Assembly (NCBI RefSeq): GCF_900104725.1
Contig: NZ_LT629758.1
Location: 4,354,501 to 4,418,500, forward strand
Source of the DNA: Actinoplanes derwentensis
GTDB taxonomy: Bacteria > Actinomycetota > Actinomycetes > Mycobacteriales > Micromonosporaceae
DNA length: 64,000 bases
Reading direction: 5' to 3'
Positions 1,885 to 25,729 of the stretch are shown one piece after another; position 1 is the stretch's first letter; each line of letters begins with the position of its first letter. The position numbers were made by a program, and so were the translations under genes. Below the pieces are notes generated by a model, which was not told the DNA's origin, searched no databases, and saw only the letters and a program-made list of their open reading frames with translations.

Positions 1885-1911
1885 CCCCGGACAGACCGGC
1901 GGGGCGGTGCG

Positions 1912-2559: not shown

Positions 2560-2571
2560 GGTTGTGGAAGG

Positions 2572-3699: not shown

Positions 3700-3709
3700 G
3701 ACAGCACCT

Positions 3710-6318
<2,609 letters not shown>

Positions 6319-7227: not shown

Positions 7228-8385
7228 ATGGCGGTTTGCTGCGTGCGGAAAGTCGTGATTGTCGGGGCCGCCCTGGCGGGGCTGAGCGCCGCGCGCGCTC
7301 TGCGCCGGCAGTCCTTCCCCGGCGAGATCGTGGTCGTCGGATCCGAACGGCACCAACCGTACGATCGCCCGCCGCTCTCCAAGGATTTTCTGACCGGCGC
7401 CGTCACGGCCGCCGACATCGCTCTCGGTGGTGACGACGACTTCGGTGCACAGTGGCGGCTCGGCGTCACAGCCGTCCGCCTCGATCCGGCCGACCGCAGT
7501 GTCCACCTCGACGACGGCGACCGGATCCGGGCCGACGCGGTGGTCATCGCCACCGGCGCACGGGCCCGGGAGCTGGGCAATCCCGGCGGCCTGGCGGGAG
7601 TCCACACACTGCGCACACTGGACGACGCGGTCGCCCTGCGCGACGAACTGATGCCCGGCGCCCGGCTGGTAGTGATCGGTGCCGGTTTCATCGGCGCGGA
7701 GGTCGCCTCCAGCGCCCGGTCGCTGGGCCTGGACGTCACCGTCGTCGAGACCCTGCCGACGCCGCTGGCCGGACCGCTCGGCCCGGAGATGGGCGGCATC
7801 TGCGCACAGCTGCACGGCGACCACGGGGTGCGGCTGCTGACCGGGGTGCCGGTGAGCGCGCTGTCCGGAACGGATCGGGTCGAGGCGGTCGAGTTGGCCG
7901 ACGGGACCCGGTTGCCGGCCGACGTGGTGGTGGCCGGGATCGGCGCGCTGCCCAACGTGGAGTGGCTGGCGGGTTCCGGCCTGACCATCGCCGGTGGCGT
8001 CGTGACCGATTCCGCCGGGGCGACGAACCTGCCCGGTGTATTCGCGACCGGCGACTGCGCGGTGGCCGCCGGCGGGCGCCGCTCCGAGCACTGGACCCAC
8101 GCCGTGGAGCATCCCGCCATCGCGGTGGCCACGCTGCTCGGCGGCACCGCGCCGGCTCTGAAGGCGCCGTATTTCTGGTCCGATCAGTACGGCGTACGCC
8201 TCCAGTTCGCCGGGCACCACGAGCCGGGCGACAGTGTCCGGGTCGTCGAGGGTGACCCGGCGGACCGCAGCTTCCTGGCCCTGTACGAGCGGGACGGCCA
8301 CCCGGTCGCCGTGCTCGGCATGAACCAGCCGAAACAGTTCACCCGGTGGCGGCGCCAGTTGCGCGCCGCGCCTCAGGAGGCTTGA
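7228..8385 (+). CDS. FAD/NAD(P)H-dependent ferredoxin reductase of a Rieske oxygenase system
   Basis: This 385-residue protein has the two-Rossmann layout of the BphA4/ThcD group: an FAD motif near the N-terminus (VIVGAALAGLSAARAL), PYDRPPLSK, a second NAD(P) motif (VIGAGFIGAEVASSARSLG) and the FATGDCA FAD-closing motif. It would pass electrons from NAD(P)H to the Rieske ferredoxin encoded next. The start could be ATG 7228 or GTG 7243; neither has a clear Shine-Dalgarno, and the palindrome at 7211-7228 would overlap the first. It is the first gene of the plus-strand operon, overlapping the ferredoxin gene by one base (TGATG). Confidence 0.9.
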   Translation: MAVCCVRKVVIVGAALAGLSAARALRRQSFPGEIVVVGSERHQPYDRPPLSKDFLTGAVTAADIALGGDDDFGAQWRLGVTAVRLDPADRSVHLDDGDRIRADAVVIATGARARELGNPGGLAGVHTLRTLDDAVALRDELMPGARLVVIGAGFIGAEVASSARSLGLDVTVVETLPTPLAGPLGPEMGGICAQLHGDHGVRLLTGVPVSALSGTDRVEAVELADGTRLPADVVVAGIGALPNVEWLAGSGLTIAGGVVTDSAGATNLPGVFATGDCAVAAGGRRSEHWTHAVEHPAIAVATLLGGTAPALKAPYFWSDQYGVRLQFAGHHEPGDSVRVVEGDPADRSFLALYERDGHPVAVLGMNQPKQFTRWRRQLRAAPQEA

Positions 8386-8726
8386 TGTCGCAGCCCGTCT
8401 GCCCACTCAGTTCGATACCGCCCGGTGAGGCGTACCGGTGGGAGGTGGATCCGCCGGTGGCGATCTTCCACACCGAGGACGGTGAGGTCTTCGCGATCGA
8501 CGACACCTGCACCCACCAGGACGCGTCACTGGCCGACGGCTGGCTGGAGGGCTGCGAGGTGGAGTGCCCGTTGCACGCGTCCAAATTCGATCTGCGCACC
8601 GGGCGGGTGGACGCGCCCCCGGCGAAGAGACCGGTCCGGGTCCACCGGGTCGAGGTGACCGGCGGCATGGTGCACGTCGAACTCTCCCGGGAAGCGCCCA
8701 ATCTGCCACCGGGGGTGAAGCCATGA
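8385..8726 (+). CDS. Rieske-type [2Fe-2S] ferredoxin
   Basis: This 113-residue single-domain Rieske ferredoxin has cluster ligands CTHQDASL and [13 protein letters not shown], in the order C-x-H then C-x2-H. Small proteins of this type shuttle single electrons from a flavin reductase to the terminal oxygenase. Its stop overlaps the choline dehydrogenase start (ATGA at 8723). An AGGAGG-like site precedes the ATG. No other terminal Rieske oxygenase is present in the window, so the oxygenase at 2572-3699 is its natural partner (inference). Confidence 0.93.
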
Positions 8727-10381
8727 CTCGGTACGACTTCGTGATCGTCGGTGGCGGATCGGCCGGATCGGCGCTGGCCAACCGGCTGTCGGCCGACCCC
8801 TCGAACAAGGTCCTCGTCCTGGAGGCGGGCCGCCCGGACTATCCGTGGGACGTGTTCGTGCACATGCCGGCGGCGCTGCCGTTCCCGATCGGCAGCCGGT
8901 TCTACGACTGGAAGTACGAGTCGGAACCCGAGCCGCACATGAACGATCGCCGCATCTATCACGCTCGCGGCAAGGTTCTCGGTGGCTCCAGCAGCATCAA
9001 CGGGATGATCTTCCAGCGGGGCAATCCCCTGGACTACGAGCGCTGGGCCGCCGACCCGGGCATGGAGTCGTGGGACTACGCGCACTGCCTGCCGTACTTC
9101 AACAAGATGGAGAACTGCCTGGCCGCCGACCCGGACGACCCGTTCCGCGGGCATGACGGGCCGCTGGTGCTGGAACGCGGGCCGGGCACGAATCCGCTGT
9201 TCGGGGCGATGCTGGAAGCCAGCCGGCAGGCCGGTTACCCGGCCACCGGCGACGTCAACGGGGAACGGCAGGAAGGCTTCGCCCTCTTCGATCGCAACAT
9301 CAGCCGGGGTCGCCGTCTCTCCGCGGCGGGCGCTTACCTGCACCCGGCGATGAGCAGGCCCAACGTGACGGTACGGACCAGGGCGCTGGTGTCCCGCGTG
9401 CTGTTCCAGGGCGATCGCGCGGTCGGGGTCGAATACTTCAAAGGCAACAGCAGGACCCCACTCCGGGCGTACGCCGACGAAGTGATCCTTTGCGGTGGGG
9501 CCGTCAACACGCCGCAACTGTTGCAGTTGTCCGGGGTGGGCAACACCGCCGAACTGGCGGCCCTCGGCATCGACCCGGTGCACCACCTGCCGGGGGTCGG
9601 CGAGAACATGCAGGACCATCTCGAGGTCTACATCCAGTACAAATGCACCCAGCCGGTGTCGGTGCAGCCGTACCTGAAGTGGCGGTACCGGCCGTGGATC
9701 GGCGCGCAGTGGCTGTTCCTGCGCAGTGGGCCGGGCGCGACCAACCACTTCGAAGCAGGTGGTTTCGTCCGCAGCAACGACACCGTCGCCTACCCGAACC
9801 TGATGTTCCACTTCCTGCCGATCGCGGTCCGCTACGACGGTTCGGCACCGGCCGGCGGCCACGGTTATCAGGTGCACGTCGGGCCGATGTACTCCGACGC
9901 CCGTGGCTCGGTGAAGATCGTCAGCCGGGATCCGCGCGAACATCCGGCGCTGCGTTTCAACTATCTCTCCACCGACCAGGACCGCCGCGAGTGGGTGGAG
10001 GCGGTGCGGGTGGCCCGGAACATCCTCAACCAGCAGGCCCTGGAGCCGTTCAACGGTGGGGAGACGTCGCCGGGGGCGGCGGTGCAGTCCGACGAGGAGA
10101 TCCTCGACTGGGTGAGGCGCGAGGGGGAGACCGCCCTGCACCCGTCGTGTACGGCCAGGATGGGGATCGACGAGATGTCGGTGGTCGAGCCGGAGAGCAT
10201 GCGGGTGCACGGGCTACGTGGGCTGCGGGCCGTCGACGCGTCGGTGATGCCGTACGTCACCAACGGCAACATCTACGCCCCGGTGATGATGGTCGCCGAG
10301 AAGGCCGCCGACCTGATCCTCGGCAACACTCCCCTGGATCCGATCAAGATCCCGTTCTTCCGGCAGGACAGTGACGCATGA
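8723..10381 (+). CDS. betA: Choline dehydrogenase (GMC oxidoreductase)
   Basis: This 552-residue protein, close to the usual BetA length, oxidises choline to betaine aldehyde with FAD. The N-terminal FAD motif [15 protein letters not shown], the GMC signature [15 protein letters not shown] and the active-site His473 ([10 protein letters not shown]) with Asn514 (VTNGNIYAP) are all present. The start is ATG 8723, overlapping the ferredoxin stop. It overlaps betB at its 3' end by four bases. The pairing with betB and a betaine importer supports choline over other GMC alcohol substrates. Confidence 0.92.
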
Positions 10382-11784
10382 GGAAAATCCACTGCCCGGC
10401 CGACGGAAGCCTGGTCGCCACGGTTCCCGAACACACTCGCGCGGACACGATCGCCGCGATCGGCGTCGCCCGTCAGGCCTTCGACGACGGCCCGTGGCCG
10501 CGCACTCCGGCGGTCGAACGAGGTGCGCTGTTGCAGCGGGTCGCCGAGTTGATCACACGGGACAAGGATGAGCTGGCCCGCGCCGAGTCGCTGGACACCG
10601 GAAAACGACTCGTCGAAGCTGAATACGACATCGCGGATGTCTCGGCTTGCTTTCGTTACTACGGCGGGCTCGCGGCCACCGACGCCGGGCGGGTGATCGA
10701 CACCGGGCGCACCGACGCGATCAGCCGGGTCGAACACGAGCCGATCGGCGTCTGCGGCCTGATCACCCCATGGAACTATCCGCTGCTCCAGACGTCCTGG
10801 AAGGTCGCTCCGGCCCTGGCCGCCGGCAACACCTTCGTGCTGAAGCCCAGCGAACTGACCCCGTCCACCGCGATCCGGCTGATGGCGCTGCTGGCCGAGG
10901 CCGGACTGCCGGACGGGGTGGCGAACCTGGTGCTGGGCGCCGGCGCCGAGGTCGGCGCGCCGCTGGCCGAGCACCCGGACGTGGACATGGTGTCGTTCAC
11001 CGGCAGCCTGCGCACCGGGCGGCTGCTGATGGCCGCCGCCGCGGCCACGATCAAACGGGTCGCGCTGGAACTCGGTGGCAAGAACCCGAACGTGGTGTTC
11101 GCCGACGCCGACTTCGACACTGCCGTCGACATGGCACTGACCGCGGTGTTCCTGCACTCCGGCCAGGTCTGTTCGGCCGGAGCGCGGCTGATCGTCGAGG
11201 AGTCGATCCACGACCGGTTCGTGGACGCGGTCGTCGAGCGGGCGCAACGGATCCGCCTCGGTGGGCCGTTCGACGAGCAGGCCGAGACCGGGCCGCTGAT
11301 CTCCGCGGAGCATCTGGCCAAGGTCGAGGACTACGTGGCCGCCGGGATCGCCGAGGGGGCGGTGCTGCGCTGCGGGGGGAAGCGACTCGACGGGCCGGGG
11401 TTCTTCTACCCGCCGACGATCCTGGACGGCTGCCGCTCCGGGATGACGGTGGTGCGGGACGAGTCGTTCGGGCCGGTGCTGACCGTGGAGACGTTCAGCG
11501 GCGAGGACGAGGCGGTCCGGATCGCCAACGACACCGAGTACGGGCTGGCCGGGGCGGTGTGGACACGTGACGCCGGGAAGGCCCAGCGGGTCGCGCGGCG
11601 ACTGCGGCACGGCACCGTGTGGATCAACGACTTCCACCCGTACGTCCCGCAGGCCGAATGGGGCGGTTTCAAGCAGTCCGGCAACGGTCGCGAACTGGGT
11701 CCCACCGGCCTGAACGAGTACCGCGAGAGCAAGCACGTCTGGCAGAACATCGACCCCCGCCCCCAGAACTGGTTCCGGTCTTAA
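10378..11784 (+). CDS. betB: Betaine aldehyde dehydrogenase
   Basis: This 468-residue NAD(P)-dependent aldehyde dehydrogenase should convert betaine aldehyde to glycine betaine. Catalytic Cys265 (SGQVCSAGA) and general base Glu231 (LELGGKNPN) are in place, with PWNYPL and KPSELTP cofactor-binding motifs. It is slightly shorter than the 490-residue E. coli BetB. It is coupled to betA by ATGA, and a 24-bp gap with an AAAGGAG site leads to the ABC ATPase. Confidence 0.92.
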
Positions 11785-11808
11785 GAAGTCCCTGACAAAG
11801 GAGTCATC

Positions 11809-12828
11809 GTGACCACCGAGGCAGTCATCTCGGTCCGGGACCTGTGGAAGGTGTTCGGGCACAAAGCGGAGCAGGTTCCACGATCGGCCGAACTGTCCGC
11901 GCTGTCCCGGCGCGAACTGATGGACCGGACCGGCTGCACCGCCGCGGTACGCGACGTGTCGTTCGACGTCGCCCCCGGCGAGGTCTTCGTGGTGATGGGG
12001 CTGTCCGGGTCCGGCAAGTCGACACTGGTCCGCTGCCTGACCCGGCTGATCGAACCGACGTCGGGCCAGGTGGTGTTCGAGGGTGAGGACATCCTCGGCG
12101 CCGACAAGAAGCGGCTGCGGGAGCTGCGGCGGCACAAGTTCTCGATGGTGTTCCAGAACTTCGGGCTGCTGCCGTACCGGCAGGTCCTCGACAACGTCTC
12201 CTACGGTCTGGAGATCCGCGGTGCCGGGCGGGCCGAACGCAACCGGCGGGCCATGGAGGTCATCTCCCTGGTCGGCCTGGACGGCTACGAGCGCAGCTAC
12301 CCCGATCAGCTGTCCGGCGGCATGCAGCAGCGGGTCGGCCTGGCGCGGGCGCTGGCCGGCGATCCGGACGTGCTCTACTTCGACGAGCCGTTCTCGGCGC
12401 TGGACCCGCTGATCCGCCGGGACATGCAGAACGAGGTCATCCGGCTGCACCGCGAGGTCGGCAAGACGATGGTCTTCATCACCCACGACCTGTCCGAGGC
12501 GCTGAAACTCGGCGACCGGATCCTGATCATGCGGGACGGAAGACAGGTCCAGTGCGGCACCGGCGCCGAACTGGTCGGCGCCCCGGCCGACGACTACGTG
12601 CGGGACTTCGTCAGTGACGTACCGAAGGCGAATGTCCTGACCCTGCGCTGGATCATGCGGGACCGGCGCGACGGCGACACCCTGGACGGACCCGAACTGA
12701 GCCCCGACGTCGTCGTCCGGGACGCGGTCCGGCCGGTGCTGGCCGCCGGGAAACCGGTGAAGGTGGTCGAGAACGGCACGCTCGTCGGTGTCGTGACCAC
12801 GGAGGAGATCCTCGGGGTCACCGCGTGA
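11809..12828 (+). CDS. proV: Glycine betaine/proline-type ABC importer ATPase
   Basis: This 339-residue ATPase of the ProV/OpuAA type energises betaine import. It has Walker [11 protein letters not shown]-loop [12 protein letters not shown], signature LSGGMQQR, Walker [13 protein letters not shown] and the switch His in FITHD. The family-specific N-terminal extension (KVFGHKAEQ...) is present. The C-terminal region is shorter than the two CBS domains of E. coli ProV, leaving only about one CBS-like unit. GTG start at 11809 follows AAAGGAG. The stop overlaps the permease start (GTGA). Confidence 0.92.
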
Positions 12829-14735
12829 TCGCCAGAAGACCACTGCTGGTCGCCGCGCTGCTGGCGGTCTGGGTGGTCGCCTGGATCCCGCTGCACGGCC
12901 TGCACACGCTCAGCCTCTCCCCCGCTGACCTGACCCCGCTGCACCGGTGGCTCAACGACGTCAACGACACGGTCGGCGCCAACCGGAACAGCAGCCCGGT
13001 CTTCCTCTACTTCTTCAACGAGATCCGCGCCGCGATCGACACGTTCGTCACGTTCCTGCAGGCGCTGATCGCCCAGCCGGCGTTCGGCCGGCCGGTTCCG
13101 GTACTGGGCTGGCTCGGTGTGGTGGCGATCGTCGCCTTCGTCTCCTGGGTGGTCGCGAACTGGCGGGTGGCGCTGCTGGCCGCCGGTGGTTTCGTCTTCT
13201 TCGGACTGCAGGGCCTGTGGACCGAGGCCATGGACACCCTCGCACTGACCCTGGCGGCGGTGCTGATCGCGCTGGCCGTCGGCATCCCGCTGGGCATCTG
13301 GGCGGGCGTCTCGGACCGCTTTCACCGGCTGATCACTCCGGTACTGGACTTCATGCAGACGATGCCGACCTTCGTCTACCTGGCCCCGCTGACGCTGCTG
13401 TTCCTGATCGGCCCGGCATCGGCGACGATCGCCACGCTGATCTACGCGATGCCACCGGCGATCCGGATCACCGCGCACGGCATCCGCTCGGTGCCCCGCT
13501 CGGCGATCGAGTCGACCGAATCGCTCGGCGCCACGCCACGCCAGGTACTCACCGGTGTGCTGCTGCCGCTGTCGAAACGCACCATCGTGCTGGGTGTCAA
13601 CCAGACCATCATGGCCGCGCTCTCGATGGTCACCATCGCGGCGCTGATCGACGCCCCGGGACTCGGCAAGACCGTCATCAAAGCCTTGCAGACCCTTGAC
13701 GTCGGTACGGCGTTCAACGCCGGTCTCGCGATCGTGGTGCTGGCCATCGTGCTGGACCGGGTCACCACCGCGGCCAGCGAACGCGACAGCCGCTCAGCCC
13801 TCAACAAGCCGCTGCTGGCCGGGTTCGCGATCGTGACCGCCGTCTGCGTCTACCTGTCGCACACCTACTACTGGGCCGCCGAGTTCCCGGATGAGTCCAA
13901 CATCGGGCGGGCCCTGTCCAAAGGTGCCGACGAGGTGACGTTCTGGGCGCAGACCGAGCTGTCCACCGCCACCGAATGGGTCAAGGACCTGGTGACGTAC
14001 GCCCTACTCAATCCCTTGCAGTCGCTGCTCGTCGAATCGCCGTGGTGGCTGGTCGGCGCGGTCGTGGTCACGCTGGCCGCCCTGCTCGGCACCGTGCGGA
14101 CCGCGGTCACCACGGCCGTCTGCGTGGCCGCGCTGATCGGCACCGGACTGTGGCAGGACAGCATGACCACTCTGGCCATGACTCTCGTCGCGACGCTGCT
14201 GGTGATGGTGCTCGGTGTCCTGGTCGGGGTGTGGATGGGCCGTAACCGGCTGGCCGACCGGATCATCCGCCCGATCCTGGACGCCGGGCAGACGATGCCG
14301 TCGTTCGTCTACCTGGTGCCGTTCCTGGCACTCTTCTCCGCCACCCGGTTCACCGCGATCGTCGCGGCGATCGTCTTCGCCGCCCCGGTCGCGATCAAGC
14401 TGGTGGCCGACGGCATCCGGGCCATCCCGGCCGCCACCGTCGAGGCCGCCACCGCCGCCGGGTCCAGTACCTGGCAGTTGATCACCAAGGTCCAGCTGCC
14501 GATGGCCCGGCAGTCGCTGACCCTGGCCGCCAACCAGGGTCTCATCTACGTGCTGGCCATGGTCGTGGTCGGTGGCCTGGTCGGAGCCGGTGCCCTCGGT
14601 TACGACGTGGTCGCCGGGTTCTCCCAGGGCCAGCTCTACGGCAAGGGCCTCGCGGCCGGCGCCGCCATCGTGTTGCTCGGCATCATGCTCGACCGGATCG
14701 CCCGAGCGTCGTCCCCCTCGAAAGGTGAACTCTGA
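12825..14735 (+). CDS. proW: Fused double-domain betaine ABC importer permease
   Basis: This 636-residue membrane protein contains two complete binding-protein-dependent permease domains in tandem. The first is at about residues 130-330 (coupling region [21 protein letters not shown]) and the second at about 435-630 ([19 protein letters not shown]). Extra transmembrane segments precede each. A single polypeptide can thus supply the whole transmembrane pair that ProW normally forms as a homodimer. GTG start overlaps the ATPase stop, and its stop overlaps the binding-protein start (TGATG). Confidence 0.9.
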
Positions 14736-15697
14736 TGAGAATGCTGCGCCTAGCGGCGACCGCTACGATCACGGCTCTGGCCCTGACCGCGTGCGGTGGA
14801 GAGAAGATCGGCGATACCGGGGCCGCGGGCGGGTCCTCGTCCGCCGCGACCGACTGCGGCACGTTCAACCTGGCGATCAACCCCTGGGTCGGGTACGAGG
14901 CGACCGCCGCCGTCATCGCGTACGTCGCCGAGAAGGACCTCGGCTGCAAGGTGACCAAGAAGGATCTCAAGGAGGAGATCGCCTGGCAGGGCTTCGGCAC
15001 CGGCGAGGTGAACGCGGTCGTGGAGAACTGGGGTCACGACGACCTCAAGAAGAAGTACATCGACGAGCAGAAGACCGCGGTGTCCGCCGGATCCACCGGG
15101 AACAAGGGGATCATCGGCTGGTACGTACCGCCGTGGATGGCCGAGAAGTACCCGGACATCACCGACTGGAACAACCTCAACAAGTACGCGGCCGAGTTCA
15201 AGACCTCCGAGTCCGGTGACAAGGGCCAGCTGCTCGACGGCGACCCGTCGTTCGTCACCAACGACGAGGCCCTGGTCAAGAATCTGAAGCTGAACTACAA
15301 GGTGGTGTACGCCGGTAGCGAGACCGCGCTGATCACCGCGTTCCGGCAGGCCGAGGCGAAGAAGACGCCGCTGATCGGCTACTTCTACGAGCCGCAGTGG
15401 TTCCTGGCCGAGGTGCCGCTGAAGAAGATCAGCCTGCCCGCGTACACCGAGGGTTGTGACGCCGACGCCGCGAAGATCGCCTGCGACTACCCGGAGTACG
15501 ACCTCGACAAGATCGTCAGCAAGAAGTTCGCCGACGCCAACGGCCCGGCGTACAAGCTGGTGAAGAACTTCAACTGGACCAACGACGACCAGAACGTGGT
15601 CGCCAAGTACATCTCCGAGGACAAGATGTCCGCCGCCGACGCGGCCAAGAAGTGGGTCGAGGCGAACCCCGACAAGGTCAAGGCGTGGCTGGCGTAA
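14735..15697 (+). CDS. proX: Glycine betaine-type ABC substrate-binding lipoprotein
   Basis: This 320-residue lipoprotein has a signal peptide ending in the lipobox LTAC (Cys20) and a Ser/Gly/Ala linker. The body belongs to the OpuAC/ProX family. Aromatic residues typical of the betaine cage appear in [26 protein letters not shown] and YEPQWF. It would capture betaine or choline for the adjacent ATPase and permease. A close paralogue lies at 24637. The TAATG junction couples it to soxB. Confidence 0.93.
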
Positions 15698-16929
15698 TGA
15701 ACCACCCCGCGCCCGGCGGTGATCTGCCCGAGCACCCGGATCGCCTGTGGCGCAACCCCGAGCCCAAAGCCGCCTACGACGTGATCGTCGTAGGCGGCGG
15801 CGGGCACGGGCTCGCCACCGCCTACTACCTGGCCAAGAACCACGGCATCACCAACGTGGCGGTGCTGGAGAAGGGCTGGCTCGCGGGCGGCAACATGGCC
15901 CGCAACACCACGATCATCCGGTCCAACTACCTGTGGGACGAGAGCGCCGGAATCTACGAGCACTCCCTGAAACTGTGGGAGAACCTCGAACAGGAGCTGG
16001 AGTACCCGCTGTTGTTCAGCCAGCGCGGCGTGCTCAACCTGGCGCACAGTTCTCAGGACGTCCGCGAGGGTGTCCGCCGGGTGCACGCCAACCGGCTCAA
16101 CGGGGTCGATGCCGAATGGCTCGACCCGGCGCAGGTGCGAGAGGTCTGCCCGATCGTGAACATCTCACCGGACGTGCGCTATCCGGTGATGGGCGCGACC
16201 TACCAGCCGCGCGCAGGGATCGCCAAACACGACTACGTCGCCTGGGGGTACGCGCGGGCCGCGGACGCCCTCGGTGTCGACCTGATCCAGCACTGCGAGG
16301 TGACCGGGCTGCAGGTCGTCGGCGGCCGGGTGACCGGGGTGCACACCACCCGCGGCACCATCGGGGCCGGGCGGGTCGCGCTCAGCGCCGCCGGGCACAC
16401 GTCGGTGGTCGCCGCGATGGCCGGGATCCGGCTGCCGTTGCAGAGCCACCCGTTGCAGGCGCTCGTCTCCGAGCTGCTGGAACCGGTCCACCCGACGGTC
16501 GTCATGTCGAACGCCGTGCACGTCTACGTCAGCCAGGCGCACAAGGGTGAGCTGGTGATGGGGGCCGGTATCGACACGTGGAACGGGTACGGGCAGCGCG
16601 GCGCGTTCCACATCATCGAACGTCAGATGTCCGCGGCCCTGGAGCTGTTCCCGGTGTTCGCCCGTGCGCACGTGCTGCGTACCTGGGGCGGCATCGTGGA
16701 CACCACTCCGGACGCGTCCCCGATCGTCGGGGTGTCCGGCGTCGAGAACCTCTACCTCAACTGCGGGTGGGGCACCGGCGGGTTCAAGGCCACCCCCGGG
16801 GTGGGCTGGTGTTACGCCCACACGGTGGCGACCGGCGAGCCGCATCCGCTGAACGCCCCGTTCAGCCTGGACCGGTTCGTCACCGGCGCGCTGGTCGACG
16901 AACACGGCGCCGCCGCCGTAGCCCACTGA
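15697..16929 (+). CDS. soxB: Sarcosine oxidase beta subunit
   Basis: This 410-residue flavoprotein subunit holds the catalytic site oxidising sarcosine to glycine. The FAD motif [20 protein letters not shown] lies at about residues 31-50. His178, in [11 protein letters not shown], corresponds to the histidine that carries covalent FMN in the corynebacterial enzyme. The start is ATG 15697, overlapping the binding-protein stop; an in-frame upstream extension is unsupported. The gene order soxB-D-A-G is the standard heterotetrameric sarcosine oxidase operon. Confidence 0.95.
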
Positions 16930-16950
16930 GTTCTTCGGTAAGGAAACGCC

Positions 16951-17193
16951 ATGATGCTCATCCCCTGCCCCTGGTGCGGGCCCCGCGACGAGTCCGAGTT
17001 CCACTACGGCGGGCAGGCGGGGGTGGCCTATCCGGCCGACCCTGACGCGCTGTCCGATGAACAGTGGGCGCATTACCTGTTCTTCCGGGACAACCCGAAG
17101 GGGCCGTTCCGGGAGCGGTGGAGTCACAGTGCGGGCTGCCGCCGCTGGTTCAACCTGACCCGGGACACCGTGACGAACGAGGTGACCGCATGA
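16951..17193 (+). CDS. soxD: Sarcosine oxidase delta subunit
   Basis: This 80-residue zinc-binding subunit has the ligands Cys6, Cys9, His59 and Cys63 all present (IPCPWCG and SHSAGC), exactly the spacing known for SoxD. It stabilises the alpha/beta interface of the tetramer. An AAGGAAA site precedes the ATG. The stop overlaps soxA (ATGA). Confidence 0.95.
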   Translation: MMLIPCPWCGPRDESEFHYGGQAGVAYPADPDALSDEQWAHYLFFRDNPKGPFRERWSHSAGCRRWFNLTRDTVTNEVTA

Positions 17194-19925
17194 CGCTGCG
17201 GTTCACTTTCGACGGGCGGGAATACCAGGGGAACGAGGGTGACACCCTCGCGTCGGCACTGCTGGCCAACGGGGTGCACGTGGTGTCGTCCGGGATCCGG
17301 ACCGGCCGGCCGCGGGGGATCTTCGCGGCCGGTGTCGAGGAGCCGAACGCGATCGTGCAGATCGAGGAGCCGTTCCCGGAGCCGATGCTGACGGCCACCA
17401 CCGTGGAACTGTTCGACGGCCTGGTGGTGCGCGGGTTGCGGGGGCAGGGGCGGCTCGCCGACCGGCCCGACCCGGCCCGGTACGGGGCGATCCACGCGCA
17501 CTGCGACGTGCTGGTGATCGGGGCCGGCCCGGCCGGGCTGGCCGCCGCCGCGACGGCCGCCACGTCGGGGGCCCGGGTGATCCTGGTGGACGATCAGCCG
17601 CAGCCGGGTGGGAGCCTGCTCGGCACCGGTGAGCTGCTGGACTGGGTGGCGGCCACGGCCGAGAGCCTGCGGGCGGCGACCGAGGTGCGGGTGTTGTCGC
17701 GGACCACCGCGTTCGGCTACTACGACGACAATCACGTGATCGCGGTCGAGCGGTGCACCGCTCATCTCGGGGCGGCGGCACCGGCGGACGAGATCCGGGA
17801 GCGGATCTGGCGGATCCGGGCCGGGCGGGTGGTGCTGGCGACCGGTGCGCACGAGCGGTCGATCGCGTTCGCCGACAACGACCGGCCCGGGGTGATGCTG
17901 GCCGGGGCGGCGCGCACGTACGTCAACCGGTACGGGGTGTCGCCCGGCCGCCGGGCCGTGGTGCTGACCACCAACGACAGCGCGTACGCGGCGGCTCTCG
18001 ATCTGCACGCAGCCGGGGTGGAGATCGCCGCGATCGCCGATCTGCGCGGCGGGACCGGATCGGAGTGGGCGCGGCGCTGCGCCGAGCGCGGTATCGAGGT
18101 GCTGGCCGGCTGGGCGGTGGCCGGGGTGACCGGTGCGGACCGGGTCTCGGCGGTCACGTTGCGTGCTCTCGACGGCGACCAGCCGGCCCGTGAGGAAGAC
18201 GCGGATCTGCTGCTCGTGTCGGGTGGCTGGAATCCGGTCGGGGCACTGTTCTCCCAGGCCGGGGGCCGTCTCGCCTACGATGCGACGCTTGCTGCCTTCC
18301 GTCCGGACGGCGGCTGCCGGCAGGCGGTGGACCTTGCGGGCGCGATAGTCGGAACGTACACGATCAGTGGTTGTCTGCTTGAAGGTGCGCAAGCCGGTGG
18401 CGGTGCCGGGCTGATCCCGCTGCCCGTGGTCGAGGAACCCGAAGCGGCTCCGCCGGTCGCGGTCTGGACTCTGCCGGGGGATGCCGCCGTCAGTTTCGTG
18501 GATCTGCAACGGGACGTCACCGTCGCTGACATCGCCCGCGCCACCGGGACCGGGATGCGGTCCGCCGAGCATGTGAAGCGCTACACCACCGCGGGCACCG
18601 CGCACGATCAGGGCAAGACGTCCGGGACCCTGACCAGCGGTGTCGTCGCCGGGCTGCTCGGGGTGGAGGTCGGCGCGCTGGGTACCACTACGTTCCGTCC
18701 GCCGTACGCCCCGGTGTCGTTCGCGGCTCTGGCCGGCCGGGATCGGGGCATGCGGTTCGATCCGGTGCGGGTGACCGCCCTGCACGGCTGGCACGAGAGC
18801 AACGGTGCGCTGTTCGAGAACGTCGGCCAGTGGAAACGCCCCTGGTACTACCCGCTCGGCGGCGAGGACATGGGCACCGCGGTGCTGCGCGAGTGCCGGG
18901 CCGCTCGCGAGGGCGTGGCGATGATGGACGCCTCCACGCTCGGCAAGATCGACGTCCGGGGGCCGGACGCCGGCGTGTTCCTGGACCGGCTCTACACCAA
19001 CATGATCAGTACGTTGAAACCCGGCGCGATCCGGTACGGGGTGATGTGCCGGCCGGACGGCATGGTCCTCGACGACGGGACCGTCATCCGGCTGACCGAC
19101 GAGAGGTTCCTGGTCACCACGACCACCGGCAACGCCGCGCTGATCCTGGACTGGATGGAGGAGTGGCTGCAGACCGAGTGGCCCTCGTTGCGGGTGCGCT
19201 GCACGTCGGTGACCGAGCAGTGGGCGACGGTCGCGCTGGTCGGGCCGAGGTCGCGGGAGATCCTGGCAGGGCTCGCCCCGGAACTGGACGTCACCAGGGA
19301 CGGATTTCCGTTCATGACGTGGCGCGACACCACGGTCGCCGGGATCGAGGCGCGGGTGTGCCGGATCAGCTTCTCCGGCGAGCTGGCTTACGAGATCAAC
19401 GTGAGCTGGTGGGACGCACTCGCGCTCTGGACACGACTGGCCGGGCTCGGGGTCACGCCGTACGGCACCGAGACGATGCACGTGCTGCGTGCCGAGAAGG
19501 GTTATCCGATCATCGGTCAGGACACCGACGGCACGGTCACCCCGCACGACCTGGGACTGGGCTGGGCGGTCTCGAAGAAGAAAGCCGATTTCATCGGCCG
19601 CAGATCCTTCGCGCGTACGGATAACAACCGCCCGGACCGGAAACAGCTCGTGGGTCTTCTGCCGGACGACGGGGTGCTGCTTCCGGAGGGTTCGCATCTG
19701 CTGCCGGACCCGGAACTTCCGGAACCGCCGGTCACCGCGCTCGGACACGTGACGTCGTCTTACCACAGCGCAGCGTTGGGCCGGACGTTCGCTCTCGCCC
19801 TGATCAGTAACGGTCGTGAGCTGCACGGACAGACGTTGTGGGCCACGCTCGACGACCGTCTGGTGCCGGTGACGGTCACCGGCTCCGTACTCTACGACCC
19901 GGAAGGCGCACGGCGAGATGGCTGA
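17190..19925 (+). CDS. soxA: Sarcosine oxidase alpha subunit
   Basis: This 911-residue subunit has an N-terminal ferredoxin-like fold without cluster cysteines (1-90), an NAD/FAD-type Rossmann domain (VLVIGAGPAGLAAAAT at 107-122) and a C-terminal GcvT/folate domain (from about 520, ending in the GFAD-like core). It binds tetrahydrofolate and converts the iminium intermediate to methylene-THF. The start is ATG 17190, inside the soxD stop. It overlaps soxG by eight bases. Confidence 0.95.
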   Translation: MTLRFTFDGREYQGNEGDTLASALLANGVHVVSSGIRTGRPRGIFAAGVEEPNAIVQIEEPFPEPMLTATTVELFDGLVVRGLRGQGRLADRPDPARYGAIHAHCDVLVIGAGPAGLAAAATAATSGARVILVDDQPQPGGSLLGTGELLDWVAATAESLRAATEVRVLSRTTAFGYYDDNHVIAVERCTAHLGAAAPADEIRERIWRIRAGRVVLATGAHERSIAFADNDRPGVMLAGAARTYVNRYGVSPGRRAVVLTTNDSAYAAALDLHAAGVEIAAIADLRGGTGSEWARRCAERGIEVLAGWAVAGVTGADRVSAVTLRALDGDQPAREEDADLLLVSGGWNPVGALFSQAGGRLAYDATLAAFRPDGGCRQAVDLAGAIVGTYTISGCLLEGAQAGGGAGLIPLPVVEEPEAAPPVAVWTLPGDAAVSFVDLQRDVTVADIARATGTGMRSAEHVKRYTTAGTAHDQGKTSGTLTSGVVAGLLGVEVGALGTTTFRPPYAPVSFAALAGRDRGMRFDPVRVTALHGWHESNGALFENVGQWKRPWYYPLGGEDMGTAVLRECRAAREGVAMMDASTLGKIDVRGPDAGVFLDRLYTNMISTLKPGAIRYGVMCRPDGMVLDDGTVIRLTDERFLVTTTTGNAALILDWMEEWLQTEWPSLRVRCTSVTEQWATVALVGPRSREILAGLAPELDVTRDGFPFMTWRDTTVAGIEARVCRISFSGELAYEINVSWWDALALWTRLAGLGVTPYGTETMHVLRAEKGYPIIGQDTDGTVTPHDLGLGWAVSKKKADFIGRRSFARTDNNRPDRKQLVGLLPDDGVLLPEGSHLLPDPELPEPPVTALGHVTSSYHSAALGRTFALALISNGRELHGQTLWATLDDRLVPVTVTGSVLYDPEGARRDG

Positions 19926-20475
19926 TCAGACCCCCCGCTCCTCCCCTCTGGCCGGCTTCGCGCTCCCGTCGGCCGATGCCGGCGTCACCCTGGCCGAGGT
20001 TCCGTTCCTGACCCAGCTCAGCCTGCGGGCCGACCAGGCCGGCGGCCTTCCGCTACCCACCGCGGCCGGTACCAGCACGGTCGACGGTGAGGCGACGTTC
20101 GTGTGGCTCGGGCCGGACGAATGGCTGGTCATCGGCCCGCCCGGCGCTCAGCGGCGGCTGACCGAACGGCTGGAAACGGTCAGCGGTTGTTCGGTGGTGG
20201 ACGTCTCGGCGCAGCGCACCACTCTGGAACTGAGCGGGCCCGGCGCTCGCGAGTTGCTGGCGCTCGGCTGCTCGCTGGATCTGCATCCCCGGGTCTTCGA
20301 GGTGGGCCGGTGCGCGCAGACGACACTCGCGCACGCGCCGGTGATCCTGCTCCGGCGGGAACCCTCCGTGATCGATACGGATCCGGTGTTCTGGGTTCTG
20401 GTGCGGGCGTCGTTCGCGGCGCACCTTGCATCGTGGGTACTCGATGCTCGAGGCGATCTCACAGGCGGTTACTGA
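19918..20475 (+). CDS. soxG: Sarcosine oxidase gamma subunit
   Basis: This 185-residue protein of the SoxG/GcvT-like fold has the characteristic WLGPDEWLVIGPP motif near residue 62. It is the structural subunit of the sarcosine oxidase heterotetramer. It is the last gene of the long plus-strand catabolic operon and is followed by a 266-bp gap with two hairpins. Confidence 0.93.
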   Translation: MADQTPRSSPLAGFALPSADAGVTLAEVPFLTQLSLRADQAGGLPLPTAAGTSTVDGEATFVWLGPDEWLVIGPPGAQRRLTERLETVSGCSVVDVSAQRTTLELSGPGARELLALGCSLDLHPRVFEVGRCAQTTLAHAPVILLRREPSVIDTDPVFWVLVRASFAAHLASWVLDARGDLTGGY

Positions 20476-20493
20476 GAACGCTCCCAAATAACC

Positions 20494-20507
20494 GCCCGTA
20501 ATCGGGC
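20494..20507 (+). terminator. Short hairpin after soxG
   Basis: GCCCG-taat-CGGGC forms a five-pair stem about 20 bp after the soxG stop. There is no U-tract. It may be a weak terminator or processing signal. Confidence 0.3.
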
Positions 20508-20583
20508 CAATGCATAAAGAGGTTGCACTGCCGTAAATTTCGGCCCCCGGTGTTGACCATCAAGGGCTGAGCGAAGAAGCTGT

Positions 20584-20627
20584 TGCGGCGATCCCGGAAG
20601 ATCAGTTCATTTCCCGGGATCGCCGCA
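20584..20627. terminator. Long hairpin between the sox operon and the conservon
   Basis: Perfect 14-bp arms TGCGGCGATCCCGG (20584-20597) and its complement (20614-20627) enclose a 16-base AT-richer loop. No U-run follows, as is common for actinobacterial terminators. The likely role is to end the catabolic operon, but a regulatory element upstream of cvnA is also possible. I see no other confident element in 20508-20741. Confidence 0.5.
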
Positions 20628-20741
20628 TCGCTTTGCGCCATTCTCCACCTTGTTAATAAGAAACTTGCCGGTTCACCCGTTGTGAATCGACCCACCGGCC
20701 GTGACCATGCCTGGCCGATGGTCGACAGAGGAGCTGATCGC

Positions 20742-23171
20742 TTGTCCGTCCAGGTTCAGGGCGCCGAGCATTCCGAGCAGTCCACGCCGGTCGGCGGGGC
20801 TTTGCCGGTCCCCGGCGCCCCCGGGGGCGGAATGTCGGCACGGACCCGCCGGTCGTCCGGCGGCACGATCCGCCGGCGGGTGGTCCGGACACTCGCCCTC
20901 CCGGTCGCCACCACTCTGGTTCTACTCGCCATCGTCGCGGTCGGCGAGGTGGACAACTACCGGACCGCCTCGGCCACCGCCCGCGCCGTCACCATCGACC
21001 TCGCGGTCGCCGAACTGGTGCAGGACCTGCAGACCGAGCGTGGTCTGACCGCCGGTCTGCTCGGCGGCAACGAGGCCTACCGCACCGAGGTACTGCCCGC
21101 CCGCGACGCCGTCGACCTGCGCCGCGACCAGTTGGAGAACCTGATCACCGACGGCGAGGAGGTCGATGACCGGGTCTCCGCCGCGGTGCAGCAGCTGGAC
21201 GGCCTGGCCGGCGTCCGGGCCGGCACCGACACCGGTTCCGGCCAGCGGGCCGCCACCTTCGCCTTCTACAGCGCCCGCATCGCCGACCTGGGCAACCTCG
21301 ACTTCGAGTTGGACAGTAACGGCGACGAGGAACTGCGCCGTGGCGCGGCCACGCTGGAAGCGCTCGGCGACATGAAGGAGGCCGCCTCCCAGGAGCGGGC
21401 CTTCCTCAACGGTGTCTTCTCCGCCGGCGGTTTCAAGCAGGGCGAATTCCTGCAATTCGTCACCATGCGATCCACCAAGGACGCGGCTCTCACCGCCTAC
21501 TACCGCTACGCCAACGACCTCGAGCGCGGCTCGATGCAATACCTCCTGGACACCGGCGCGGCCCGCGAGGCGGCGTTCTTCGAGAATGTCGCGCTTCAAT
21601 CCGGTGACGGCCGGTCGCTGCAGGTCAACCCGCAGTCCTGGTGGTCCGCGCTGACCACCGTGCTGGACGACACGCTGCAGCTCGAACACCACGTCGGTTC
21701 GGTCATCTCGGCGCGCGCCACGTACCTGGAGGACGAGGCCTCGGTCCGGATGACCGTGCTGCTCGGTGCGGTGCTGATCTGTCTGGTCGGCTCGATCTAT
21801 CTGGCCACCGTCGCGTCGCAGTCGGTGGCCCGGCCGCTGACCGTGCTGGCCAACGAGGCCAACCGGCTGGCCAGCACCCAGCTGCCGGACGCGGTCCAGA
21901 AGGCCAGCACCGGTGACGGCACCACACCGCCGCCCCCGGTGCTCGTGCCCCGCGGCGCGAGTGTCGAGGTCCGTCTGGTGGCCGACGCCTTCGACCGGGT
22001 GCAGGCCACCGCGTACGCCCTGGCCACCGAGCAGGCCACGCTGCGGCGGACCACCGCCGAGTCGATGGCCAACCTCGGCCGCCGCAACCAGAACCTGCTC
22101 CGCCGCCAGCTCGGCTTCATCACCAAGCTGGAGCGCGAGGAGTCCAACCCGACCGGTCTGGCGAACCTCTTCGAACTCGACCACCTGGCCACCCGCATGC
22201 GGCGGAACGCGGAGAGCCTCCTGGTCCTGGTCGGCGCGGCCAGCCCGCGGCAGCTCTCCGAACCGCTGATGGTCTCCGACGTGATCCGCGCGGCCGTCTC
22301 CGAGGTCGAGGAGTACCGCCGGGTCACCCTGCGCCGGGTGGACGAGGCGCTGGTCAACGGCTCCACGGTCAGCGGTATCGCGCACATGCTGGCCGAGCTG
22401 ATCGAGAACGGCCTGTCCTTCTCCCCGCCTGATCAGGACGTGGAGATCCACGGGCGGCGGATCGGCGGCACCTACCTGATCGCCATCACCGACCAGGGTG
22501 TCGGCATGACGGCCGCCGACATGCAGCGGGCCAACGAGCGGCTGCGCGGCGAGGGTGACTTCATCACCGCTCCGGCCCGGTTCCTCGGCCACTACGTGGT
22601 CGGCCGCCTGGCCCAGCAGATGGGCATCGAGGTGCAGCTCACGCCGTCGCCGGTGACCGGTGTGACGGCCCGGATCACGCTGCCCGCGGAGATTTTGACC
22701 GACCAGCAGAGTGTCGGCTCGCGGCCACAGCCCCCGGCGGCCCGCCCGGCTGCGCGGGCGGTCGAACCGGCCGCGCAGGCCGCACCCGCCGCCCCGGCCG
22801 CGCCGTTGCGGATCCCGCCGGCCGAAGTCGGTCAGGCCCAGCCGGTGACCGCCGGTGTCGTCACCGCGGACCGGCCACTACACTCCACCGCCATCGAGTA
22901 CGTGGTGGTCAAGGACGACAACGCGGCGGCCATGACCGCGGTGCTGGACTTCGGGCCGCCCGGTGACGACGCGCCCCGGACCGCGAACGGCCTGAAGAAG
23001 CGGACACCCCGCGCTCAGCGGGCCACGACCCGACCACCGACGGTGTCGAACAACGCGCCGGCCGAGCGGCCGGCGCCGGTCAGTGGCTCGGCGGAGTCGG
23101 TGCGGGACCGGCTCAACGCGCTGCGTGGCGGTATTCAGCGCGGTAGTTCTGAAACAGCGGGGTCCCAGTGA
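20742..23171 (+). CDS. cvnA: CvnA: conservon sensor histidine-kinase-like membrane protein
   Basis: With the TTG at 20742 (preceded by AGAGGAG) it has 809 residues; ATG 20718 is an alternative. It has transmembrane segments at about 50-70 and 335-360, flanking an extracytoplasmic NIT-like (nitrate/nitrite-sensing type) domain beginning DLQTERGLTAGLL. A HAMP-like linker follows (SVARPLTVLANEANRL). The kinase core has an atypical dimerisation helix (FELDHLATRMRRNAE) and an HATPase with ELIENGLSFSPP and DQGVGM. The C-terminus is a long Ala/Pro-rich tail. This is the standard first gene of a conservon, whose partners follow immediately. Confidence 0.9.
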   Translation: MSVQVQGAEHSEQSTPVGGALPVPGAPGGGMSARTRRSSGGTIRRRVVRTLALPVATTLVLLAIVAVGEVDNYRTASATARAVTIDLAVAELVQDLQTERGLTAGLLGGNEAYRTEVLPARDAVDLRRDQLENLITDGEEVDDRVSAAVQQLDGLAGVRAGTDTGSGQRAATFAFYSARIADLGNLDFELDSNGDEELRRGAATLEALGDMKEAASQERAFLNGVFSAGGFKQGEFLQFVTMRSTKDAALTAYYRYANDLERGSMQYLLDTGAAREAAFFENVALQSGDGRSLQVNPQSWWSALTTVLDDTLQLEHHVGSVISARATYLEDEASVRMTVLLGAVLICLVGSIYLATVASQSVARPLTVLANEANRLASTQLPDAVQKASTGDGTTPPPPVLVPRGASVEVRLVADAFDRVQATAYALATEQATLRRTTAESMANLGRRNQNLLRRQLGFITKLEREESNPTGLANLFELDHLATRMRRNAESLLVLVGAASPRQLSEPLMVSDVIRAAVSEVEEYRRVTLRRVDEALVNGSTVSGIAHMLAELIENGLSFSPPDQDVEIHGRRIGGTYLIAITDQGVGMTAADMQRANERLRGEGDFITAPARFLGHYVVGRLAQQMGIEVQLTPSPVTGVTARITLPAEILTDQQSVGSRPQPPAARPAARAVEPAAQAAPAAPAAPLRIPPAEVGQAQPVTAGVVTADRPLHSTAIEYVVVKDDNAAAMTAVLDFGPPGDDAPRTANGLKKRTPRAQRATTRPPTVSNNAPAERPAPVSGSAESVRDRLNALRGGIQRGSSETAGSQ

Positions 23172-23215
23172 CAGCCATCCCGAAGTGGCCCCTTGGCAGC
23201 AACCTGGAAAGAAGA

Positions 23216-23644
23216 ATGATGAGCGTTGACACGTCGTCGGATCGGCACCAATTCAATTGGCTGCTCGGTAACTTCGTCCACCAGACGGACGGCGTGCGTG
23301 ACGCCGTGGCGGTGTCCTCCGACGGGTTGCTGATCGCCAGCTCGGACGGGCTGAACCGGGCCGAGGCGGACCAGTTGGCCGCCATCGTCTCCAGCCTGGC
23401 CAGCCTGGCCCGCAGCGCCTCCCGGCGGTACGACTTCGACGGCCTCAAGCTCATCATGATCGAGATGCACCGGGGGTTCCTGCTGGTCTCGGTGATAGCC
23501 GGCGGCAGCTGCCTCGGCGTGGTGGCCGGCAGCGACTGCGATCTGGGCCTGGTCGGCTACGAGATCTCGCTACTCACCGAGCGCTTCGGTGATCTGCTCA
23601 CTCCGGCCCTGATCGCAGAGTCCCGGCAACACCTCCCGCGATGA
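23216..23644 (+). CDS. cvnB: CvnB: roadblock/LC7-domain protein
   Basis: This 142-residue roadblock/LC7 protein (LLGNFVHQTDGVRDAVAVSSDGLLIASS) is of the kind that binds and regulates the conservon GTPase, as MglB does for MglA. ATG 23216 or 23219 both follow GGAAAG. The gene overlaps cvnC by four bases. Confidence 0.93.
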   Translation: MMSVDTSSDRHQFNWLLGNFVHQTDGVRDAVAVSSDGLLIASSDGLNRAEADQLAAIVSSLASLARSASRRYDFDGLKLIMIEMHRGFLLVSVIAGGSCLGVVAGSDCDLGLVGYEISLLTERFGDLLTPALIAESRQHLPR

Positions 23645-24060
23645 GCAGCCCGTCGTGGGGCGCCGAACCCGGCTCTGTTCCGTACGCCGGGTCACACCGG
23701 CCGTCGGGTGGAGGATTGCACTCCGGTGACATGGACGAGGATCCGGTGATCCGGCCGTTCATGCTCACCAACGGGCGCACGCAGCCACTGCACGACAACC
23801 TGCGGATCGAGACCCTGCTGCACGCGGCTCCGGCCGCGTTGTCGGCACCACTACGCTTCGAGTCCCGGCGCATCGTCGAGCTCGCGCAGTCGCCGATGTC
23901 GGTCGCGGACCTGTCGGTGGCGCTGCGCGCGCCGCTCGGTGTGGTCCGCGTCATCGTGGCCGACCTGATCACCCAGGGCTACCTCAGCGTGCAAGACCAG
24001 CCCGAGGAGCTCTCCACCAGTTTGATCGAAAGGATCAGGGACCGTGTCCGGGCGCTCTAG
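23641..24060 (+). CDS. cvnC: CvnC: DUF742 protein
   Basis: This 139-residue DUF742 protein has the typical core VIRPFMLTNGRTQP and a winged-helix-like C-terminal region (RIVELAQSPMSVADLSVALRAPLGVVRVIVADL). Its biochemical role in conservons is not settled. It is coupled upstream by ATGA and overlaps cvnD by 17 bases. Confidence 0.92.
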   Translation: MSSPSWGAEPGSVPYAGSHRPSGGGLHSGDMDEDPVIRPFMLTNGRTQPLHDNLRIETLLHAAPAALSAPLRFESRRIVELAQSPMSVADLSVALRAPLGVVRVIVADLITQGYLSVQDQPEELSTSLIERIRDRVRAL

Positions 24061-24643
24061 GGAGCCGTCGGCAGCGCACCCCATCGCTGTCAAGATCGTC
24101 ATCAGCGGCGGTTTCGGCGTCGGCAAGACCACCTTCGTGGGTGCCATCTCCGAGATCGAGCCGCTCGTCACCGAGGCCGAGATGACCGAGAGGTCGATCG
24201 GTATCGACGACACCTCCGCGGTGTCCGGCAAGACCACCACGACCGTGGCCCTCGACTTCGGCCGCATCACCCTCGACGAATCGCTGCTGCTGTACCTGTT
24301 CGGCACGCCCGGGCAGGACCGGTTCGCGTTCCTCTGGGACGACCTGGTCACCGGCGCCCTCGGAGCGATCGTGCTGGTCGACACGCGGCGGATCGAGGAT
24401 TCCTTCCCCGCGATCGACTACTTCGAGGAGCACGAGATCCCGTTCATCATCGGCGTCAACCGGTTCAACGGCGCTCAGCGGTTCATCCTCGAGGAGGTCC
24501 GCGACGCGCTCGGGGTCAGCCCCGCGGTGCCGTTGATGGAGTGCGACGCCCGCGACCGCGAGTCGGTCAAGAGTGTCCTGGTGGCGCTCACCGAGGAGGT
24601 CCTCGCCAAGCGGGCGAACCGGGAGCGGGCGGCGGCATGGTGA
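24044..24643 (+). CDS. cvnD: CvnD: conservon small GTPase-like protein
   Basis: This 199-residue P-loop protein has Walker A GGFGVGKTT, switch II FGTPGQDRF and a degenerate base-specificity loop (GVNRF where NKxD is expected), as is usual in CvnD. It is the output GTPase of the conservon. GTG 24044 lies inside cvnC. The last seven bases overlap the start of an extracellular binding-protein gene, which is unusual. Confidence 0.92.
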   Translation: MSGRSREPSAAHPIAVKIVISGGFGVGKTTFVGAISEIEPLVTEAEMTERSIGIDDTSAVSGKTTTTVALDFGRITLDESLLLYLFGTPGQDRFAFLWDDLVTGALGAIVLVDTRRIEDSFPAIDYFEEHEIPFIIGVNRFNGAQRFILEEVRDALGVSPAVPLMECDARDRESVKSVLVALTEEVLAKRANRERAAAW

Positions 24644-25596
24644 TCCGCCGGTTCGCCCAGGCCCTGACCGCGTTCGGTCTGGCCGTGGTGGCCGGCTGCG
24701 CCACCACCCAGGCCGCCGTCACCCCACCGCCGGGGGTGCCCAGCCCGCCCTCCTGCGGGACGGTGAACCTCGCGGTCAACCCGTGGTCCGGGTCGGCCGC
24801 GAACGCCGCCGTCGTCAGCTACCTCCTCAAGGAGGAGCTGCGGTGCAAGGTGAACAGCTACGAGCTGAGCGAGACCGCCTCGTGGGCCGGCTTCGTCGAC
24901 GGCAGCATCGACGTGATCCTGGAGAACTGGGGTCACGACGATCTGAAGAAGAAGTACATCGACGGGCAGAAGGTGGCCGTCGAGCTGGGCCTCACCGGCA
25001 ACAAGGGCGTCATCGGCTGGTACGTGCCGCAGTGGATGGCCGACGAGAACCCGGACATCCTCGACTGGCGCAACCTGAACGAGTACGCCGACACGTTCAA
25101 GACCACGGCGACCGGCGGGAAGGGGCAGTTCCTGGCCGCCGACCCGTCGTTCGTCACCAAGGACGCCCAGCTGATCGAGAACCTCAAGCTCGACTACACC
25201 CTGGTGTACGCGGGCAGCGAGGACAAGCTGATCGCCGCGTTCCGGCGGGCGCAACGGCAGAAGACCCCGCTGCTCGGCTACTTCTACGAGCCGCAGTGGC
25301 TGCTGTCGGACATCAAGCTGGCGCACATCCCGTTGCCCCGGTACAAGCCCGGCTGCGACGCCGACGCGGACGCCGTGACCTGCGACTACCAGCCGTACGA
25401 CCTCGACAAGATCGCCCGTAAGGCGTTCGTCGACTCGGGCAGCCCGGGGGCCGTCTTCCTCAAGAACTGGACCTGGACCAACAACGACCAGAACCAGGTC
25501 GCCCGGGACATGACCCAGGGCAAGATGACCGCCGACGAGGCGGCCAAGAAATGGGCCGACGCCAACCGCGACGTCTGGGAGAAATGGCTGCCCTGA
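24637..25596 (+). CDS. Orphan glycine betaine-type binding lipoprotein coupled to the conservon
   Basis: This 319-residue OpuAC/ProX-family protein is clearly paralogous to the one at 14735. Shared cage-region segments include [26 protein letters not shown] and CDADAD. The signal peptide ends in lipobox VAGC. It has no permease or ATPase of its own. Its ATG overlaps the cvnD stop by seven bases, so it is translated with the conservon. It either lends a second specificity to the ProVW importer or presents ligand to CvnA (inference). Confidence 0.92.
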   Translation: MVIRRFAQALTAFGLAVVAGCATTQAAVTPPPGVPSPPSCGTVNLAVNPWSGSAANAAVVSYLLKEELRCKVNSYELSETASWAGFVDGSIDVILENWGHDDLKKKYIDGQKVAVELGLTGNKGVIGWYVPQWMADENPDILDWRNLNEYADTFKTTATGGKGQFLAADPSFVTKDAQLIENLKLDYTLVYAGSEDKLIAAFRRAQRQKTPLLGYFYEPQWLLSDIKLAHIPLPRYKPGCDADADAVTCDYQPYDLDKIARKAFVDSGSPGAVFLKNWTWTNNDQNQVARDMTQGKMTADEAAKKWADANRDVWEKWLP

Positions 25597-25612
25597 CGCC
25601 CCGCACCGCACG

Positions 25613-25651
25613 ATGAGCAGACCTGGTCAACGGGTCTGCTCATCTGCTTTT
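25613..25651 (+). terminator. Rho-independent terminator of the conservon operon
   Basis: Eleven-base arms ATGAGCAGACC (25613-25623) and GGTCTGCTCAT (25633-25643) form a stem around a short loop. The sequence ctgctttt follows. This is the clearest intrinsic terminator in the window and places the binding-protein gene inside the conservon transcription unit. Confidence 0.8.
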
Positions 25652-25729
25652 CCGGGTGTCCCGGCAGGCTTGTCGTAAGCCTGAATCGCGCCAGAGCCTG
25701 GCTTGAGGTAGCGGCCCGAATGTTTGGGC

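Follow-up and report, generated by a model that had tools for sequence, protein, structure and literature searches.

In a stretch of 64,000 nucleotides from the genome of Actinoplanes derwentensis (contig NZ_LT629758.1, positions 4,354,501 to 4,418,500; the window in the following), the conservon genes cvnA-B-C-D are followed by a fifth gene, which codes for a lipoprotein of the OpuAC family. The arrangement is far beyond chance, as it is conserved across two families and down to approximately 56% protein identity, and in this conservon lineage the lipoprotein gene is a constant fifth member. Judged from the genes, we consider it rather probable that the input of the conservon is a dedicated extracytoplasmic binding protein, the lipoprotein, which would capture a choline/betaine-type compound and present it to the sensor kinase-like protein CvnA.

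Layout and conservation of the five-gene unit

The five genes are located on the plus strand and all gave domain matches above the Pfam cut-offs, in agreement with the original prediction, which had been made from the letters of the window. The first gene, cvnA (20742..23171, with TTG 20742 as the start chosen in that prediction), codes for a protein of 809 residues with a HATPase_c domain (E 1.3e-11) and a NIT domain (E 1.2e-42; residues 91–320, 21012..21701), the latter flanked by two predicted membrane segments and here proposed as the docking site. It is followed by cvnB for a roadblock protein (23216..23644; Robl_LC7, E 3.2e-18), cvnC for a DUF742 protein (23641..24060; E 5.9e-21) and cvnD for a Ras-like small GTPase (24044..24643; ATP_bind_1, E 6e-27; Ras, E 1.2e-5). 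For cvnB, ATG 23216 or the next residue is where the alignment starts in most of the relatives' loci, and GTG 23168 is a possible earlier start. Kinase, roadblock, DUF742 and GTPase domains in this order and in one orientation identify the unit as a conservon, and the order is kept in the relatives. In five Kineosporia loci (L063, L069, L078, L082 and L087; L numbers denote the loci examined) the open frame of CvnA has 1015–1174 residues.

The accessory fifth gene (24640..25596) matches OpuAC (PF04069) with E 3.5e-36 and 125.6 bits against a cut-off of 21.2. At its junction with cvnD, gcATGGTGAtcc, two starts can be read, ATG 24637 with a 7-base overlap with the cvnD stop and GTG 24640 with a 4-base overlap. 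The 7-base overlap had been predicted originally and is possible; however, GTG 24640 is probably the start, since 26 of 39 linked loci permit the 4-base overlap, as against 20 that permit the 7-base one, with no candidate start in two loci. The unit ends with a terminator-like hairpin (25612..25644, plus strand; 14 pairs, loop of 5, tail TGCTTTTCCG). This had been called a strong terminator. It is indeed the longest of four terminator-like sites in 19500–26500, but its tail is only moderately T-rich and shuffled sequences give 2.4 ± 1.8 sites, so that the hairpin stands out by its length alone.

Searching 120 relatives with the lipoprotein yielded two sets of homologs, which we divided manually at a gap between the scores of 434 and 392 bits. 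The close set comprises 38 genomes with 58–87% identity, and the other, named ProX set hereafter, shows approximately 53–59%. The cvnD gene is located immediately upstream of the lipoprotein gene in all 38 genomes of the close set (29 loci read, L004–L032, eight judged by coordinate comparison and one in L112). Absence from relatives, named beforehand as the outcome that would speak against the prediction, is thus not what we found. A scan of named-species genomes, in which the best 80 of 351 matches gave 79 loci, placed cvnD within approximately 175 bases in 38 of the 79. These belong to Actinoplanes and allied genera (26), Micromonospora (3), Salinispora, a metagenome-assembled genome (MAG) of Dactylosporangium, Kineosporia (5), a MAG of Kineosporiaceae and an unplaced Actinomycetota MAG; that is, to Micromonosporaceae, Kineosporiaceae and the one unplaced MAG. 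Among the other 41 loci, two (L059, L064) have the conservon 2 to 5 kb upstream and one (L101) has a different conservon nearby; for the remaining 38 no conservon was found in the stretch examined, some of these stretches ending near the gene. In other genera of the family, 27 places were inspected (11 of them overlapping with the named loci). The binding protein gene follows cvnD in seven and adjoins proW in 20, and none of the 27 has neither neighbor. The linkage is kept at gaps of up to approximately 170 bases, where the overlap is lost, as well as in changed neighborhoods.

The phylogenetic trees, quick ones without bootstraps, separate this lineage. Of the 40 linked proteins in a tree of 101 binding proteins, 39 form one clade together with L097 (support 99 in the Shimodaira-Hasegawa-like approximate likelihood ratio test, SH-aLRT); the contig of L097 offers 174 bases upstream, so its linkage to cvnD is not readable. 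The 40th protein, from the Dactylosporangium MAG (L060), sits in the importer clade beside that of Planosporangium (L059). When the tree was enlarged by 16 rows, 42 linked proteins and L097 formed one clade (SH-aLRT 99) apart from the importer proteins. Also for CvnA, 37 linked sequences, including L060, cluster with L059 and L064 in a single clade (SH-aLRT 99). The 19 unlinked paralogs that were read all fall outside of it, and L101 has a very long branch.

The genome of A. derwentensis (10.65 Mb) has seven DUF742 places and five OpuAC places. Around its six other conservons no homolog of ProX or the lipoprotein was found at E 1e-6, nor at E 1e-10 around the 19 unlinked conservons L113–L131 (L129 belongs to both sets). 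The next open frame in ten such unlinked loci, six from this genome and four from relatives, codes once for a GNAT and once for a flavin monooxygenase-like protein, and eight times for a product without Pfam match; the search for accessories of other types ended with these frames. Extending the search to the class with the NIT domain at E 1e-45 recovered two of 394 genomes, one being that of the window (at most six candidates were scored per genome, so distant cases may escape); the second (L140) has no lipoprotein or ProX homolog behind cvnD.

Binding site, sensor domain and proposed signal path

The lipoprotein belongs to the OpuAC family by its domain and by an aromatic cage for quaternary ammonium compounds. 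The cage residues W50, W98, Y215 and Y217 are kept in 39, 40, 40 and 40 of 40 clade members, respectively, and the lipobox in 40 of 40. Its predicted fold, from a model of modest quality, matches OpuAC, ChoX and ProX. In place of the Glu that contacts the ligand in TmoX and DmpX, the lipoprotein has Ile126, and the ProX of the window likewise has an Ile. The only clade member with an Arg for W50 is the lipoprotein of Actinoplanes cyaneus (L039), a species in which no homolog of the ProX set was found at E 1e-20; from both features together, this lipoprotein may have changed its ligand.

On the side of the kinase, a NIT domain was found in all 37 CvnAs scanned (29 of 39 from the linked clade and eight of 19 unlinked). 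A TorS-like fold for this domain was considered and not retained, the predicted model being clearly NasR-like and its match to TorS at background. Clade-specific positions of CvnA are concentrated in the extracytoplasmic region (14 of 285, vs one of 276 in the kinase part); examples are 179, 187, 207, 272, 280 and 296–322. Furthermore, over 36 loci the distances between the binding proteins track those between the NIT domains best (partial r 0.525, one-sided permutation p 0.0002). The partner with which the binding protein co-varies most closely is therefore the extracytoplasmic portion of CvnA rather than CvnB or CvnC.

These observations suggest the following path. The lipoprotein, anchored on the outer face of the membrane, would close around a choline/betaine-type ligand and in this form dock on the NIT domain of CvnA, and docking would alter the kinase activity. 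CvnA might then act through CvnB, similar to a GTPase-activating protein (GAP), and CvnC, similar to a guanine nucleotide exchange factor (GEF), on the GTP state of CvnD, so that the GTPase switch would follow the supply of osmolytes or methylamines. In other conservons, CvnB has been described as GAP and CvnC as GEF, and such a control of the GTP state of CvnD is known for the Mfp system (PMC13343842). That the output of the switch is the use of choline and betaine or osmotic control is a guess. The original prediction had read the unit as sensing an osmolyte; conservation of the unit, choline/betaine genes near 15 of 42 linked loci in several layouts and the kept cage support it in part, the contact with CvnA, the ligand and what the GTPase controls being presumed here as well.

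Choline and betaine genes around the conservon

As had been stated originally, a betaine catabolic locus adjoins the conservon in the window. On the minus strand, genes for a Rieske oxygenase and a dimethylglycine-dehydrogenase-like protein (2572..6256; Pfam Rieske and Ring_hydroxyl_A; DAO, GCV_T and FAO_M) are assigned to betaine breakdown. They are followed, on the plus strand, by genes for a ferredoxin reductase, betA and betB (7228..11784; betA above the cut-off of TIGR01810, betB with TIGR01804 as best match, below cut-off), by proV and a fused proW of a choline/betaine importer (11809..14735; TIGR01186 and TIGR03416 above cut-off), by proX for the importer's binding protein (14735..15697; OpuAC, E 6.4e-39) and by the sarcosine oxidase genes soxB, soxA and soxG (15652..20475; TIGR01373 and TIGR01372 above, TIGR01375 below cut-off). 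Together, the genes flanking the conservon encode a choline-to-glycine route plus its importer. ProW (12825–14735) has 636 residues with two BPD_transp_1 stretches, a tandem permease of a size that recurs in relatives. From the end of soxG to cvnA there are 266 bases, which hold a 19-base inverted repeat (20584–20627, 89% complementary, no T run). It was rejected as a conserved element, as it was not found in the four relatives tested.

Of 42 linked conservons, 15 have choline/betaine genes within 2.5 kb, vs none of 19 unlinked ones, counting matches of at least 45% identity, disregarding the binding protein behind cvnD and leaving out L101. Without L059 and L064, which had been recruited through their ProX, the count is 13 of 40. 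A count within 6 kb (16 of 42) was not used because the stretches of the unlinked conservons are shorter.

One sub-branch has the conservon embedded in, or next to, an operon for choline/betaine import. Around such genes the order reads betA-cvnABCD-betB-proV-proW-proX, followed by sarcosine oxidase genes, in Rugosimonospora (L064), cvnABCD-proW-proX in Planosporangium (L059), cvnABCD-proX in L060 and cvnBCD-lipoprotein-betA-proV-proW-proX in the MAG L065. The first three look like stages which leave the conservon of an import operon with the binding protein alone, a direction that we infer. Probably, a conservon came to lie next to an operon for choline import, and one binding protein then specialized for signaling. 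Three loci deserve a description of their own. In Planosporangium mesophilum (L059, 3929–10942) genes for a fused permease and for ProX come after the conservon, with no match to proV or another ATPase gene in the 21-kb stretch. Mangrovihabitans endophyticus (L044, ~280–10900) has a proX gene just before cvnA and the lipoprotein gene after cvnD; proV and proW are encoded on the opposite strand. In Sinosporangium album (L101, ~1950–12020) a different conservon, its CvnD 61% identical, stands head to head with proVWX, followed by a tandem second ProX-like gene; this is perhaps another conservon-betaine pairing.

The importer raises the question whether the lipoprotein serves ProVW, or another OpuA-type importer, as an additional binding protein and is merely co-expressed with the conservon. 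It is, as anticipated, a clear paralog of the ProX encoded 10 kb upstream (54% identity) with the same cage, most genomes with the lipoprotein also encode a member of the ProX set, and in L044, L045, L046, L049 and L056 a proX gene is located just upstream of cvnA. However, the lipoprotein gene stands behind cvnD also where importer genes are not near (27 of the 42 loci have no choline/betaine gene within 2.5 kb), and the linked proteins form a clade separate from the importer proteins. Moreover, one genome (G066) keeps the lipoprotein and has no homolog of the ProX set at E 1e-20, more distant OpuAC proteins being present. Nor does the gene have a permease or ATPase partner as expected for a subunit of an ATP-binding cassette (ABC) importer of the ProVWX type: it stands between cvnD, on its upstream side, and a glycosyltransferase gene, and the nearest permease gene (12825–14735) has its own proX. 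The designation as orphan should be qualified, as in the 27 places inspected in other genera of the family this type of binding protein always has proW or cvnD alongside. We regard a service to the importer as unlikely.

Still somewhat less likely, the lipoprotein could belong to the output, the switch governing osmolyte uptake or retention and the operon carrying one of the target genes. The several layouts in which the conservon is embedded in, or adjoins, genes for import and breakdown (L059, L064, L065, L057) would fit; against this, a binding protein without permease imports nothing, and the co-variation points to the extracytoplasmic part of CvnA instead of CvnB or CvnC. That CvnA directly senses a small anion via NIT, with the lipoprotein as a neighbor kept by inheritance and without joint function, is improbable, since the linkage outlasts the loss of the overlap, changes of the neighborhood and the divergence of the proteins, and since in L060 an importer-clade binding protein occupies the same place.

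Several points weigh against a binding protein that feeds CvnA. No choline/betaine gene was found within 2.5 kb of the majority, 27, of the 42 linked loci. The co-variation extends to CvnD (partial r 0.31, p 0.0002) and to the cytoplasmic part of CvnA (0.26, p 0.0036), and as NIT is the fastest-evolving part compared, its better value may partly reflect better resolution. NIT retains its ERG and QER motifs, so this domain might itself sense an anion directly, and in the predicted model NIT is no closer to TorS than unrelated helical bundles are. Finally, the 71 CvnD places comprise 37 linked, 19 unlinked that were read and 15 unlinked that were not; with 15 of 34 unlinked places unread and the linked set found via the binding protein, a conservon of this clade lacking the lipoprotein could be missed.

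Relation to known systems

NIT domains have been assigned to Cvn1–6 of Streptomyces coelicolor, which share with the conservon described here the order cvnA-B-C-D, the domains and the position of NIT between membrane segments (PMC8510531). A fifth gene for an extracytoplasmic binding protein sets the present unit apart, being absent from the descriptions considered here (PMC8510531, PMC13343842). Accessory proteins as such are known: CvnE, a cytochrome P450, and CvnF, a cytosolic GAF protein, occur overwhelmingly with CvnAs without NIT, and CvnF8 stimulates CvnA8 (mBio 2026, PMC13343842). The genes for CvnF8 and CvnE likewise stand right behind cvnD, and their products are proposed to feed CvnA (PMC13343842); in our case, a secreted lipoprotein is combined with a NIT-bearing CvnA. 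Indeed, the gene behind cvnD codes for OpuAC only, and all CvnAs scanned carry NIT. With the importer binding proteins OpuAC, ProX and ChoX the lipoprotein has fold and aromatic cage in common; it differs by following cvnD and by having no permease or ATPase partner of its own.

Sensor kinases fed by binding proteins, namely TorT-TorS, LuxP-LuxQ and XylFII-LytS, are precedents, in which a binding protein is likewise proposed to act on the kinase's extracytoplasmic domain (PMC6321045). Here, in contrast, the output is a roadblock/GTPase system instead of a response regulator, the sensor is a NIT domain of NasR fold, and the contact is a predicted one, indicated indirectly by the co-variation with NIT.

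The sensory input of conservons is largely unexplored according to the 2026 work on CvnF8, which deals with cytosolic accessories and the main text of which does not contain the terms lipoprotein, substrate-binding, betaine, ABC transporter, solute or OpuAC (PMC13343842). Consistent with the original prediction, we found no description of a conservon with an extracytoplasmic binding protein as accessory in the open-licence papers searched, a description elsewhere being possible. Within these papers, such a protein would be a new, third kind of conservon accessory beside CvnE and CvnF. Whether the unit is a bacterial counterpart of ligand-gated G-protein receptors, with a lipid-anchored choline/betaine-binding head of the CvnA kinase switching a Ras-like GTPase, appears evenly balanced to us.

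In the present conservon, the family of the accessory protein predicts a ligand class. If the proposed path is true, a conservon would for the first time have a defined ligand from outside the cell, and a NIT domain would receive its signal from a binding protein rather than sense it itself. A signaling operon with a choline/betaine-type binding protein may then report outside osmolytes or nutrients to the GTPase switch.

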